From contig JACQFS010000246.1 in NCBI GenBank assembly GCA_016199935.1, positions 1 through 33,918 of the forward strand: a DNA stretch of 33,918 bases, given 5' to 3'. The DNA is from Verrucomicrobiota bacterium (GTDB taxonomy: Bacteria > Verrucomicrobiota > Verrucomicrobiia > Limisphaerales > JACQFS01). Numbering within the stretch: position 1 is the stretch's first letter; each line of letters opens with the position of its first letter. A model generated the notes under the pieces. It saw nothing but the letters and a program-made list of their open reading frames with translations. It searched no databases and was not told where the DNA came from. A program made the position numbers and the translations under genes. Below, one piece after another: positions 3,704-32,202 of the stretch.

Positions 3704-5002
3704 ATGAACGTCCTCCGGCACACCGACGCGGATTTCGCGGGCCGCCTCGCGCAACTCGCCGCGGCGTCGAGCCTCTTCGACCCCGCCATCGAGCAGCGCG
3801 CGCGCGACATCGTCGAGGCCGTGCGCACGCGCGGCGACGCGGCGCTGCTGGAATTCACCGAGCGCTTCGATGGCGCGAAGCTCACGGCCGAACAACTCGC
3901 CGTGACCTCCGCGGAAAGCTTCGCCGCCTCCGTGCGGGCCGACGACGCCCTGCGCGCCGCCGTGACCGAGGCGGAGAAAAACATCGCGGCCTTTGCGCGC
4001 AAGTCGCGCCGGAAAAACTGGCGGATGAAAAATTCCCACGGCGCGACGGTCGGCGAGAAGTTCGATCCGTTTCAACGCGTCGGCATCTACATCCCCGGCG
4101 GCACCGCGCCGCTGGCCTCGACGGCGCTGATGACCATCACGCTCGCGAAGGTCGCGGGCTGCCGCGAGATCGTCGTCTGCACGCCGTGCGGGCGCGACGG
4201 TTCGATCAACTCCGCGCTCCTCTTCGCCGCGCGCGCGGCGGGGGCAACGGAGATTTACCGGCTCGGCGGCGCGCAGGCCATCGCGGCGCTCGCGCTCGGC
4301 ACGGCGACGATCCGACGCGTGCAGAAAATTTTCGGCCCGGGCAACGCCTACGTCGTCGCGGCCAAGCGCCTGCTGTTCGGCCACGTCGCGATTGACCTGC
4401 TGCCCGGACCCAGCGAAGTGCTCGTGCTCGCGGACGACACGGCGGACGCGAAGTTCGCCGCGGCCGATTTGCTCGCGCAGGCCGAGCACGGCTCCGGCCA
4501 CGAGCGCGTGTGGCTCGTCACGCCCTCGGCGAAATTTCTGAAGGCGGTGCAGAAGGAAATCGCGCGGCAGCTTCCGAAGCTCTCGCGCCGCGAGTTCATC
4601 CAGCGCGCGCTCGACGCGAACGGCTGGCTCATCCAGGTGAAGTCGCTCGCCGACGGCGTGGCCCTCGTGAATCGCCTCGCGCCGGAGCATTGCGAAGTGA
4701 CGACGCGCGGCGCGCGCGAGTTGAGCCAGGGCATCGTGACGGCGGGCGCGATCTTCCTCGGCAACTATTCGCCGACGGTGCTGGGCGATTACGTCGCCGG
4801 TCCCAGCCACACGCTGCCGACCGGCGGCGCGGGCGCGAGCTTCGCCGGCCTGACCGTGGACCAGTTTCAACGCCGCACGAGCGTGGTGGAATACACCAAG
4901 CCGTCGCTCAAGAAGGCGCTCGGCGCGGTGCGGAAGTTTGCCGAACTGGAAGGGCTGGATGCGCACGGCCGCTCGGCCACGATCAGGACGGAGGGCAAAT
5001 GA
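3704..5002 (+). CDS. hisD: Histidinol dehydrogenase
   Basis: HisD oxidises L-histidinol to L-histidine in two NAD-dependent steps, ending histidine synthesis. The 432-residue protein is full length. It shows the GGTAPLAST and GPGNAYV segments, the zinc ligands Gln259 and His262 in LAQAEHGSGH, the catalytic pair in APEHCEV (Glu328-His329), Asp362 in GDYVAGPSHTLPTGG, and a C-terminal His421. The start is the first ATG of the frame and agrees with the family N-terminus. Its TGA overlaps the ATG of hisC (ATGA), so the two are translationally coupled. Confidence 0.97.
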   Translation: MNVLRHTDADFAGRLAQLAAASSLFDPAIEQRARDIVEAVRTRGDAALLEFTERFDGAKLTAEQLAVTSAESFAASVRADDALRAAVTEAEKNIAAFARKSRRKNWRMKNSHGATVGEKFDPFQRVGIYIPGGTAPLASTALMTITLAKVAGCREIVVCTPCGRDGSINSALLFAARAAGATEIYRLGGAQAIAALALGTATIRRVQKIFGPGNAYVVAAKRLLFGHVAIDLLPGPSEVLVLADDTADAKFAAADLLAQAEHGSGHERVWLVTPSAKFLKAVQKEIARQLPKLSRREFIQRALDANGWLIQVKSLADGVALVNRLAPEHCEVTTRGARELSQGIVTAGAIFLGNYSPTVLGDYVAGPSHTLPTGGAGASFAGLTVDQFQRRTSVVEYTKPSLKKALGAVRKFAELEGLDAHGRSATIRTEGK

Positions 5003-6138
5003 AGCTCATCCGTCCGCTCGTGCGCAAGTTGCACGCCTACGTCCCCGGCGAGCAGCCGAAGATCAAGGGCCTCATCAAACTCAACACGAACGAGAATCCC
5101 TACCCGCCCTCGCCGAGGGTGCTGCGCGCCGTGCAGGCGGCGGTGGATAGCCGGCTGCGGCTGTATCCGAACCCGACGGCGCAGGCGTTGCGCGAGCGGC
5201 TCGCGAAACATCATGGGTGCAAAGCGGAGAACATCATCGTCGGCAACGGCTCGGATGAATTGCTCGCGCTGGCGGTGCGGGCGTTTGTGGAGCCGGAGGG
5301 ACGAGCTCCGCGAGTCCCCGATAAGAAAATGTCAGGGACTCGCGGAGCTCGTCCCTCCGAGACTGTTCAGTATTTCACCCCGAGCTACTCGCTCTATCCC
5401 GTGCTCGCGGACATCCACGGAGCGGCGAAGAACGCGGTGCCGCTCGGCGCGGATTTCTCGCTGCCGTCGGTCGCGGAGCTGCGTCGTGGCGGTCAGTGGG
5501 ATTTCCGCGCGGCGCTCACGCTGGTCACCACGCCGAATGCGCCGAGCGGCACGGGCTACGCCACGACGCAGTTGGAAAAACTCTGCCGCGCGCAGCAGGG
5601 CGTCGTGGTGCTCGACGAGGCTTACGTGGATTTCGCGAAGGAGCACGCGCTCAGGCTCGCGCTGAAGTTTCCGCACGTCATCGTGTCGCGGACGTTCAGC
5701 AAGGCCTACTCGCTGTGCTTTCAGCGCATCGGCTACTTCATCGGCCATCCGGAACTCATTGCCGCGCTGGACAAGATTCGCGACAGCTACAATGTCAACG
5801 GCCTCGGCCAGGTCGCCGCGCTGGCGACGCTCGATGACCTTGGTTATTACCGCGCGAACTTCCGCCGCATCGTGGCCACGCGCGAACGCACGGCGGCGGC
5901 GCTGGGCGCGCTGGGCTTCGAGGTGTTGCCGAGCCAGACGAATTTCCTCCTCGCGCGCCCGCCGCGTTTCGTAGCCGAGGCGTGGTTGCAAAAACTCCGC
6001 GCGCGCAAAATTCTCGTGCGCTGGTTCAGCTCGCCCGAGGTCCGCGACTTCCTCCGCCTCACCATCGGCGCCGACGCGGAGATGGACGCGCTGCTGCGCG
6101 CGGCGCGCAATATCCTCGACGGTCCGGCGTCCGCGTGA
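4999..6138 (+). CDS. hisC: Histidinol-phosphate aminotransferase with an in-frame palindromic insert
   Basis: HisC is a PLP enzyme that transaminates imidazole-acetol phosphate to histidinol phosphate. The 379-residue frame begins at the ATG overlapping the hisD stop; an earlier in-frame start inside hisD is not plausible. Family features are LNTNENPYPPSP, GNGSDELL, TPNAPSGT, DEAYVDF and the PLP lysine Lys235 in SRTFSKAYSL. Residues about 99-121 (EGRAPRVPDKK and following) are encoded by a perfect 25-bp inverted repeat at 5294-5359 and have no counterpart in the usual FVEPGD...TPTY region. The insert is 66 bp, so the frame is kept and the enzyme may remain active. The TGA stop directly precedes a half copy of another repeat at 6139. 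Confidence 0.95.
   Translation: MKLIRPLVRKLHAYVPGEQPKIKGLIKLNTNENPYPPSPRVLRAVQAAVDSRLRLYPNPTAQALRERLAKHHGCKAENIIVGNGSDELLALAVRAFVEPEGRAPRVPDKKMSGTRGARPSETVQYFTPSYSLYPVLADIHGAAKNAVPLGADFSLPSVAELRRGGQWDFRAALTLVTTPNAPSGTGYATTQLEKLCRAQQGVVVLDEAYVDFAKEHALRLALKFPHVIVSRTFSKAYSLCFQRIGYFIGHPELIAALDKIRDSYNVNGLGQVAALATLDDLGYYRANFRRIVATRERTAAALGALGFEVLPSQTNFLLARPPRFVAEAWLQKLRARKILVRWFSSPEVRDFLRLTIGADAEMDALLRAARNILDGPASA
5294..5359. repeat. 66-bp inverted-repeat element inside hisC (REPIN-like)
   Basis: Two perfect 25-bp arms, 5294-5318 and 5335-5359, flank a 16-nt spacer. The outer ends read CGGAGGGACGAG. Each arm can itself fold: GGGAC pairs with GTCCC and GC with GC, separated by tandem GA/GA mismatches. 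The length is a multiple of three and both strands of the arm are open in the hisC frame. No clear target-site duplication is seen. Confidence 0.95.
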
Positions 6139-11309: not shown

Positions 11310-11322
11310 ACACCATGAAGAA

Positions 11323-11549
11323 TTGCCCGCGAAGCACGCGAAGAGACGCGAAAGGTTCCAACGACGCTGCGCGCTCCGACTCCCTCGCCCCGCGAGGAAC
11401 GAGCGGGGAGAGGGTTGGGGAGAGGGGAATCGATGCCGTTTGGATTGCGCACCTCCTCTCCCCGGCCCTCTCCTCCGTTTCACGGAGGAGAGGGAGAAGC
11501 ACGGCGGCCTGCGTTCCCTTTCGCGTGCCTTCGCGTGCTTCGCGGGCAA
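11323..11549. repeat. 227-bp composite inverted-repeat element with nested hairpins
   Basis: Outer arms 11323-11355 and 11517-11549 pair over 33 bp with two mismatches. Inside, 11409-11425 pairs with 11455-11471 (17 bp, two mismatches). Two side hairpins stand at 11382-11414 (12-bp arms, one mismatch) and 11466-11494 (12-bp perfect arms CCCTCTCCTCCG/CGGAGGAGAGGG, loop TTTCA). It fills almost the whole gap between two genes that otherwise look like one operon. No coding frame here is credible. Confidence 0.9.
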
Positions 11550-11568
11550 AACTTTTTTCCACCCACTT

Positions 11569-15810: not shown

Positions 15811-15814
15811 GCGC

Positions 15815-15886
15815 GGAGCGGCGACATTTTTGTCGCCGTCGTAATTCAATTTGGATTTACGAGGGCGACAAAAATGTCGCCCCTCC
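15815..15886. repeat. Inverted-repeat element between convergent genes (REPIN-like)
   Basis: Arms 15815-15844 and 15857-15886 pair over 30 bp with two mismatches. Each arm contains its own hairpin GGCGACA-TTTT-TGTCGCC. The right tip, read inward, is GGAGGGGCGAC. It lies between the DUF1080 gene and the PanB-like gene, whose TGA stop begins one base outside the right arm. It may serve as a two-way terminator. Confidence 0.9.
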
Positions 15887-15887
15887 G

Positions 15888-18058: not shown

Positions 18059-18113
18059 TTTACGGTTTCACGGCGAGGCGAGGGCCAGCGGACCAAGCCG
18101 GGGCCAGGCGCGC

Positions 18114-18184
18114 GGTGGGGCGAGACTCTGTCGAGCCGAGTCCCCAAGCCGGCCGAACTCGGCTCGACAGAGTCTCGCCCCACC
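18114..18184. repeat. 71-bp perfect inverted-repeat element (REPIN-like)
   Basis: Perfect 28-bp arms at 18114-18141 and 18157-18184 flank a 15-nt spacer. The tips read GGTGGGGCGAG. Inside each arm GGC and GCC, and GAC and GTC, can pair with tandem GA/GA mismatches between them. It fills the middle of the 228-bp gap between the P450 and SDR genes; nothing else is evident there. Confidence 0.95.
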
Positions 18185-18286
18185 TCGCCACCGCGGGTCA
18201 CACACGATCGCGAGATGCGCACCCGGTGAACGGATCGCTGGATTTCCGCTCGCCTTCATTTCCCTCGCCGCCCAACATTCGCGGCC

Positions 18287-29581: not shown

Positions 29582-29628
29582 GGCAGTGGTTTAGCCGCGA
29601 AGCGGCACGGCGGCAAATGCGAAGCTCG

Positions 29629-29766
29629 AAATCCGAAACCCGAAATCCGAAACAAATCCAAATTCCAAATGGCGAAATGAGCAAACGGTCGGGTCGCGTT
29701 TTGAGCCTTCGGGTTTGCTCATTCGGATTTGTTTTGGATTTCGGATTTCGGATTTCGGATTTTGTC
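29629..29766. repeat. AATCCGAAATCC inverted repeat, entering the 3' end of pabB
   Basis: Words AATCCGAAA and ACAAATCCAAA on the left are mirrored by TTTCGGATT and GGATTTGTTTTGG on the right; GAGCAAAC/GTTTGCTC pairs at the inner ends. The right arm contains the pabB stop codon (29719-29721). Confidence 0.85.
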
Positions 29767-31251
29767 CTCCCGCGCCGTGAGACTCATCGCCGCGACAAAT
29801 CCCCTGCCCTTCGCCAGCGTCTCCTCGAACTCCGCTGCCGGATCCGAGTCGGCCACGATGCCGGCACCGACGTGGAAGAACGCGCACGCGTCGCGCCGGA
29901 CCGCCGTGCGAATGATGATGCTGAGCTGGCTCTCGCGGTTGAAGCCGAGATAGCCGAGCGCGCCGGTGTAAGGCCCGCGCGTCACCGGCTCCAACTCGTC
30001 AATGATCTCCATCGCGCGAATTTTCGGCGCGCCGGTGATGCTGCCGCCGGGGAAGCACGAGGCGAACGCGGCGAAATGCGTCACGCCGCCGCGCAGCCGG
30101 CCCTCGACGGTGGAGACGAGGTGCTGCACCTGCGGAAATTTTTCGAGCCGCATCAGCTCCGGCACCTGCACGGAGCCGAACTCGCACACGCGGCCCAGAT
30201 CATTCCGCAACAGGTCGGTGATCATCACCAACTCGGCGCGCTCCTTCTCGCTCGATTGCAATTCGTAGCTCAGCCGGGCGTCGGAATCGGCATCCGCGCC
30301 GCGCGGGCGGGTGCCCTTGATCGGACGCGTGACGATGTGCCCGCCACTCATGCGCAGGAATGACTCGGGCGACGACGACACGATTTGAAAATCCCCGCAA
30401 TCGAGAAACGCCGCGAACGGCGCGGGCGAAACGGTCGCGAGCCGACCGAACAATTCCCAGCCGCTGAACGGACACGGCGCTTCGAGCCGCTGCGCGAGGT
30501 TCACTTGGTAGATGTCGCCGGCGCGGATGTAGCGCTGCGCGCGCGCGACTTTGGCGATGAACTCCGCGCGCGAAAGGTTTGAAGCGATGGTCGGGACGCG
30601 TTTCACCGCGTCCCCATCCGGAGCCCCGGCGGGGCGGCTCGCGCGCACGGGTTGAGTTGAGGGCACCCCTTCGGGGCTCAAGTCGGGGACGCGGTGAAAC
30701 GCGTCCCGACCGGAGTTGACGAGGCGCTCGCGCCAGAATTCCGCGCGCTCCTCCGCGCGGTGCCAGCTGCGTGAGCCGTCGGCATCGAGGCCGGTGCTCA
30801 AGATCCAGACTTTGCCAAGGTGATGATCGAAGACGACGAGGCCGTCATAAAAGCCCACGGCGCAGTCCGGCAGTTCGAGATCGTCGACCGCGGCGCGCGG
30901 CAGTTTCGGCTCGACGAAATTTTTCAGGTCGTAGCCCCAATAGCCGAAACAGCCACCGAGCGGGAACGGCAGGTCCGCCTCGTCGAGCAGTTCGTAGCGC
31001 GCCATCAGGCCATCGAGCACGTGCCACGGATTGCCGAAGACTTCGCGCGCTCCGGAAACATCGGCGAGTTCGCAGCGCGAGCCGAAGGCGCGGAAGGAGA
31101 GAAACGGCCGGGCCGCAACGAACGAGTAGCGCGCCGCCGGCAAATCGAAGAGCGCGCTGCGCAAGAGCATGACGCCTGGCTCGCCGCCAAGCGACTCGAC
31201 GAGCGACTCGGGCGTGTGCGTGGTCTGGGTTTCCTGGATCAGCGGGCGCAT
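29719..31251 (-). CDS. pabB: Aminodeoxychorismate synthase component I, with an in-frame palindromic insert
   Basis: PabB turns chorismate to 4-amino-4-deoxychorismate for folate synthesis, using ammonia from a PabA partner that is not in the window. The ATG at 31251 is preferred over the GTG at 31275. The Lys in PIKGTRPRG (Lys312) marks PabB rather than TrpE, which has Ala there. Other motifs are GDIYQVNLAQR, SSSPESFLRM, LVMITDLLRNDLGRVC, FPGGSITGAPKIRAMEII, and GAGIVADSDPAAEFEET. Residues 181-221 (GRDAFHRVPDL... DAVKRVPT) are encoded by the 123-bp element at 30589-30711 and fall in the linker between the two domains. The C-terminal KIRNPKSEIQNKSE is repeat-derived. Confidence 0.92.
   Translation of the reverse strand: MRPLIQETQTTHTPESLVESLGGEPGVMLLRSALFDLPAARYSFVAARPFLSFRAFGSRCELADVSGAREVFGNPWHVLDGLMARYELLDEADLPFPLGGCFGYWGYDLKNFVEPKLPRAAVDDLELPDCAVGFYDGLVVFDHHLGKVWILSTGLDADGSRSWHRAEERAEFWRERLVNSGRDAFHRVPDLSPEGVPSTQPVRASRPAGAPDGDAVKRVPTIASNLSRAEFIAKVARAQRYIRAGDIYQVNLAQRLEAPCPFSGWELFGRLATVSPAPFAAFLDCGDFQIVSSSPESFLRMSGGHIVTRPIKGTRPRGADADSDARLSYELQSSEKERAELVMITDLLRNDLGRVCEFGSVQVPELMRLEKFPQVQHLVSTVEGRLRGGVTHFAAFASCFPGGSITGAPKIRAMEIIDELEPVTRGPYTGALGYLGFNRESQLSIIIRTAVRRDACAFFHVGAGIVADSDPAAEFEETLAKGRGFVAAMSLTAREDKIRNPKSEIQNKSE
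30589..30711. repeat. 123-bp inverted-repeat element inside pabB (REPIN-like)
   Basis: Perfect 27-bp arms at 30589-30615 and 30685-30711 flank a 69-nt spacer. Each arm holds its own hairpin GGGACGCG-TTTCAC-CGCGTCCC, and the tips read GGTCGGGACG. The spacer has further hairpins, such as CCCC-TTC-GGGG. The total length is 41 codons and no stop appears in the pabB frame. Confidence 0.95.
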
Positions 31252-31272
31252 TTCTCGGCGCGAAAAATTAAG

Positions 31273-31297
31273 CACGGATGGACACGGATGGACACGG
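31273..31297. repeat. Tandem CACGGATGGA repeat
   Basis: Two copies of CACGGATGGA followed by CACGG lie between the LOG-family and pabB genes. The word resembles ATGGACACGAA of the element at 16740. Confidence 0.6.
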
Positions 31298-32015: not shown

Positions 32016-32041
32016 GAAGGGAAAAGCGGTGGGCGATCCCG

Positions 32042-32144
32042 GAGCGCGGCCTTCAGGCCGCTTCAACGTCCGCACTCCGTAGCGCTCTGAAACTTTTCAA
32101 CTGCATTCCAGTTCGCACGTCGAAGCGGCCTGAAGGCCGCGCTC
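32042..32144. repeat. 103-bp perfect inverted-repeat element (REPIN-like)
   Basis: Perfect 23-bp arms at 32042-32064 and 32122-32144, tips GAGCGCGGCC, flank a 57-nt spacer. Each arm is nearly self-complementary (GCGGCCT/AGGCCGC). It sits in the divergent gap between the LOG-family and aquaporin genes, so it lies near or within both promoters. Confidence 0.93.
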
Positions 32145-32202
32145 TGCGGTCATCAAATTGTCACTCGCCCTTCACGCAACCGTCGGCTAGAAACTCCCGC
32201 GC

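Follow-up and report, generated by a model that had tools for sequence, protein, structure and literature searches.

Mobile palindromes that lie in frame inside genes are an already known kind; the classic example is that of the Rickettsia palindromic elements. GTAG-tagged REPs, which form head-to-head dimers 20-100 bp apart, also have in-frame intragenic copies (Di Nocera et al. 2013, PMC3733652), and in-frame dimers are most numerous in Opitutus terrae, like the host of the present locus a verrucomicrobium (PMC3733652). Units of the GTAG type have a GTAG or GTMG-degenerate tag at the foot of a hairpin with a stem of 5-13 bp and a loop of 2-20 nt; their families often number 20-100 units, with thousands in some and fewer in others, and the RAYT gene, missing in some species, is flanked by the same repeat (PMC3733652). 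Recurrence at one and the same site has a precedent in Xanthomonas recB (PMC3733652).

The window, by which we mean the whole stretch of 33,918 nucleotides analysed here, contains a pabB gene with an inverted repeat in its inter-domain linker. The outer arms (30589-30615 and 30685-30711) are 27 bp long, as originally predicted, and pair without a mismatch; wider arms (30589-30634 and 30666-30711) have a complementarity of 87%, and for the coding-strand RNA of the element the folding energy is -96.7 kcal/mol, with z = -10.6 relative to dinucleotide shuffles. The best reading of the segment is that two REP-like units stand head to head, each made of GTCG and a hairpin with an 8-bp stem and a 6-nt loop (TTTCAC). 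The units face each other with their tags outside and 71 bp between them, so that tag, hairpin and opposed units 20-100 bp apart all agree with the GTAG type. Features are collected in the table.

Features of the pabB locus, of the rest of the window and of other stretches of the same assembly
Feature	Position	Strand	Remarks
pabB, aminodeoxychorismate synthase component I	29719..31275	-	518 aa from GTG; in-frame ATG eight codons downstream
pabB element, REP-like head-to-head dimer	30589..30711	.	123 bp, in the pabB frame; encodes GRDAFHRVPDLSPEGVPSTQPVRASRPAGAPDGDAVKRVPT
REP-like unit 1	30590..30614	+	GTCG + GGGACGCG-TTTCAC-CGCGTCCC hairpin; pattern search of own genome
REP-like unit 2	30686..30710	-	inverted copy of unit 1; pattern search of own genome
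Middle between units	30615..30685	.	71 nt; second, weaker inner palindrome GGAGCCCCGGCGGGG / CCCCTTCGGGGCTC
Peptide VPDLSPEGVPSTQPVR	within pabB element		would come from translation through the element
Second in-frame palindrome, hisC (ORF about 4966-6138 +)	5294..5359	.	family other than that of the pabB element
Other-family palindromes in the window	32035-32151, 15814-15887, 18110-18188, 11318-11554		between genes or at a gene's end
RAYT-like gene at C16	L051:6467-7480		GTAG repeats GTAGCGCAGATTGTCAATCTGC on both sides
Y1 transposase gene at C171	L045:441-1062		151 aa; inverted hairpin-bearing ends CTCATTAACACC (CTCATTAACACCCCGC...)
Near-tandem-word inverted repeats	L054:1815-1922, L044:2575-2663, L075:11967-12059, L081:5115-5183 and others		

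A pattern search of the 5.03-Mb genome returned five copies of the exact-stem pabB unit and one stem variant, that is, six units in four places, a low copy number beside the 20-100 units often found in GTAG-type REP families. The tag is GTCG on both pabB units and GTAG on three of the four others. The unit on C121 lies just past a gene's stop codon, paired with the stem variant. Outside its own genome, the exact unit was found in a public species collection in one other Verrucomicrobiota MAG only, twice, in palindrome-rich DNA. The genome encodes four Y1_Tnp genes, none of which was seen flanked by GTMGGGACGCG, the ends of the pabB unit. Because no RAYT gene was seen flanked by the pabB repeat, the element is called REP-like here and is not filed as a GTAG family; a cognate gene may lie in a gap or may have been lost. 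At least two of the four Y1_Tnp genes are themselves flanked by palindromic repeats, of other families. One is the RAYT-like gene at C16, a REPtron whose repeats have another stem sequence. The other is the gene at C171, whose ends are common to 146-153-bp mini-elements elsewhere (family 7); by these shared ends the mini-elements are apparently non-autonomous derivatives of the C171 transposon. Sequence support for Y1 mobilisation thus lies with other element families of this genome; for the pabB element we infer it.

The pabB ORF is uninterrupted across the element, which corresponds to about aa 189-229 and hence to the linker between Anth_synt_I_N (aa 19-157) and Chorismate_bind (aa 236-489; both Pfam). 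The motifs are kept, as had been claimed, and the catalytic Lys of PIKGT is intact (K312 counted from the ATG, K320 from the GTG). The best solved relative of this PabB is E. coli PabB (1k0e, E=2.4e-86), and the alignment between the two breaks between query residues 176 and 231, where an E. coli linker of ~13 residues stays unaligned. We compared the protein with the PabB encoded at 48 loci in relatives, none of which belongs to its own family but all to its order. Their inter-domain segment is hypervariable in sequence and spans 58-114 aa (median 63.5), and the element's 41 codons are absent from it (about 48 loci). The original prediction had named conservation of the linker residues across phyla as the observation that would speak against it; these residues are conserved neither within the order nor in E. 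coli PabB. The pabB gene of the window carries a repeat-bearing, in-frame, lineage-specific insertion.

The claim that the element adds 41 residues holds for the codons that it encodes and not for the net gain. The inter-domain segment of the window's PabB measures 85 aa, and only 44 aa without the element, against a minimum of 58 in relatives; the element would therefore have come with, or preceded, a loss of native residues. Judged by these lengths, the net gain is ~22 residues, about 15-20 native residues are missing, and the event is not a clean insertion into an intact linker. A second palindromic repeat (29627-29764; arms 29627-29663 and 29721-29757), built of ATCCGAAATCC words, overlaps the 3' end of the same gene and supplies its stop codon and last about 14 residues (KIRNPKSEIQNKSE).

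Inverted-repeat elements were counted in 1.08 Mb taken as stretches of the 5.03-Mb assembly, which held 189 of them, against none in a Markov shuffle; a simple clustering threshold divided them into 26 multi-member families and 34 singletons. Genes were called with a codon-based finder seeded on known window genes, which was right about the frame in 299 of 300 tests. A codon model trained on the longest ORFs was dropped because of antisense-ORF contamination (frame recall 176/300). Although 87% of the sample is coding, 139 elements fall between genes, 28 run across the end of a gene and 22 are contained in predicted genes, or about 980 per Mb between genes versus 23 per Mb in coding DNA. Elements are thus depleted about 40-fold in coding DNA. 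The proposal that such elements are regularly turned into coding sequence therefore stands as to their recurrence (22 in genes in 1.08 Mb) and is not supported as to an active tendency.

Where one strand is coding on both sides of an element, 18 elements keep the frame open, one keeps the frame, contains a stop and lies between two predicted genes, and five change the frame. None of these five was retained as a frameshift within a gene, since four separate two different protein families and one sits at the end of the upstream ORF. Even with all five counted as real, the excess over one third in frame is significant (p = 1.3e-5). In-gene element lengths showed no significant surplus of multiples of three (10/22), although the ends of an inverted repeat do not exactly mark the limits of an insertion. 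The in-frame pattern fits purifying selection acting on random insertion, and the lack of confirmed out-of-frame cases is what purifying selection against frameshifts gives. From this genome-wide pattern we infer that the pabB element persists neutrally while selection keeps the frame intact. Hosts of in-gene elements include MnmG, a MiaB-like radical SAM protein, D-galactarate/altronate dehydratase, an OPT transporter, a histidine kinase and several DUF1549/DUF1553 proteins. Members of family 9 differ from one another in the frame that is read.

Some elements of the sample deserve separate mention. Three DUF1553 proteins share the site of an in-frame family-1 palindrome, which follows YRQS/T and is read as VAADVRRL in each (L042:3773-3874, L042:18209-18302, L089:900-993); this shared site may reflect shared descent of paralogues. 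A 66-codon palindromic segment lies in frame inside mnmG (gidA; L053:3606-3803). In several families the inverted repeats consist of short words set almost in tandem (AATGACG, CACGGATGGA, TTGAACC, AAGGAGTAAT), which sets them apart from hairpin REPs.

Elsewhere in the order, too, elements were found at the same PabB linker. When 48 further pabB genes were scanned, strong inverted repeats (score >= 15) lay in this linker only, and in three other families the element types there differ from that of the window. G029 has a palindromic element with 56 matching stretches in its own genome, G021 has half of an element of the family-7 type with 41 matching stretches, and G002 has a 153-bp palindrome with 46-bp arms. 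The G002 and G029 elements look like clean additions, as subtracting 51 from 114 and 31 from 94 leaves 63 in each. The long PabB linker of G041 was rejected as an element, its insert being unique in the G041 genome. The second in-frame event predicted for the window is likewise real, and concerns hisC and another family. Its element has a same-family counterpart in G002, in the same loop and with an equal-length 13-nt spacer, and G014 has a different palindrome in that loop. The arms of the pair in the window's genome and G002 differ by paired changes, and such variants also occur within the genome; the pair may go back to a single old insertion or to two.

Taken together, these observations make it probable (about 0.82) that the 123-bp pabB segment is a short non-autonomous REP-like mobile element, a dimer of the BIME/REPIN kind, mobilised in trans by a Y1 transposase, inserted in a tolerant linker and persisting through its kept frame. 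Two inverted GTMG-tagged hairpins would have landed as a dimer in the inter-domain linker, most likely mobilised in trans by a Y1 (HUH, RAYT/TIRYT-type) transposase. The element would have been retained because the net insertion preserved the frame, one element frame is free of stops, and the linker is free in length and sequence. Translation would be expected to yield an inert, probably disordered 41-residue stretch. The perfect 27-bp arms around a less perfect middle, and the low copy number of the unit, would also suit a palindrome that formed locally during replication, through templated inversion or the correction of a quasi-palindrome; the arm recurs, however, at three loci elsewhere in the genome and in the other Verrucomicrobiota MAG, so that the sequence is dispersed and not of local making, which makes this origin improbable. 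We give still less weight to a chimeric inverted join arising in assembly or binning. The draft is fragmented (260 contigs, 4.3% contamination), but the ORF is open and in frame with all motifs present, and many similar elements are distributed non-randomly between genes, with the same pattern in relatives.

On the other hand, the insertion could have been domesticated, with the encoded linker or the mRNA hairpin selected for function in domain spacing, partner binding or slowed translation between domains. That at least four families of the order have different kinds of element at this linker, and two families a same-family element at the hisC loop, is consistent with such selection. The elements nevertheless differ in family and in encoded residues, so that no common peptide was selected; G041 has an equally long linker with no repeat element; and repeated use of one site is to be expected if insertion is tolerated nowhere but in this loop. 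We consider domestication unlikely. Doubtful too, if marginally less so, is the broader proposal that the PabB linker and the HisC loop are recurrent sites at which unrelated Y1-mobilised palindromes independently became coding across the order, some being kept because a longer linker was useful. The reuse of the same linker and loop by unrelated elements is modestly new. Under the preferred reading of a tolerated mobile dimer, the locus offers a clear example, open to checking, of protein sequence contributed by mobile palindromes outside Rickettsia. Four different insertions at a single linker of the same enzyme form a natural series in which neutral and selected retention become testable, and which lets the strength of selection on random insertions be measured (a depletion of about 40-fold within genes and not one confirmed frameshift).

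Among described systems, the pabB element resembles the intragenic REP dimers of Di Nocera et al. in its outside GTMG tag, 8-bp stem, head-to-head arrangement and in-frame position in genes for known proteins, in tolerant linkers or loops (PMC3733652). It differs from them in the very low copy number of its family, its TTTCAC loop, the lack of a cognate RAYT among the genes seen, and its 41 aa compared with a typical 20-30 (PMC3733652). Like Rickettsia palindromic elements, it belongs to palindromes of ~100-150 bp found in frame in unrelated housekeeping genes and apparently tolerated there (PMC10969869, PMC3733652); compared by description, those elements belong to another phylum and are described as coding for a conserved peptide, whereas family 9 here is frame-variable. 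Coxiella QMITEs are also small inverted-repeat elements sometimes fused in frame with genes, but are described as MITEs, and their in-frame mid-ORF cases lie mostly in hypothetical proteins (PMC5896051). TIRYT and RAYT-derived mini-elements are the remaining parallel, with repeat-flanked Y1 genes and dispersed short derivatives (PMC3733652), represented in this genome by the genes at C16 and C171; the pabB family differs in that no such gene was seen for it in this assembly.
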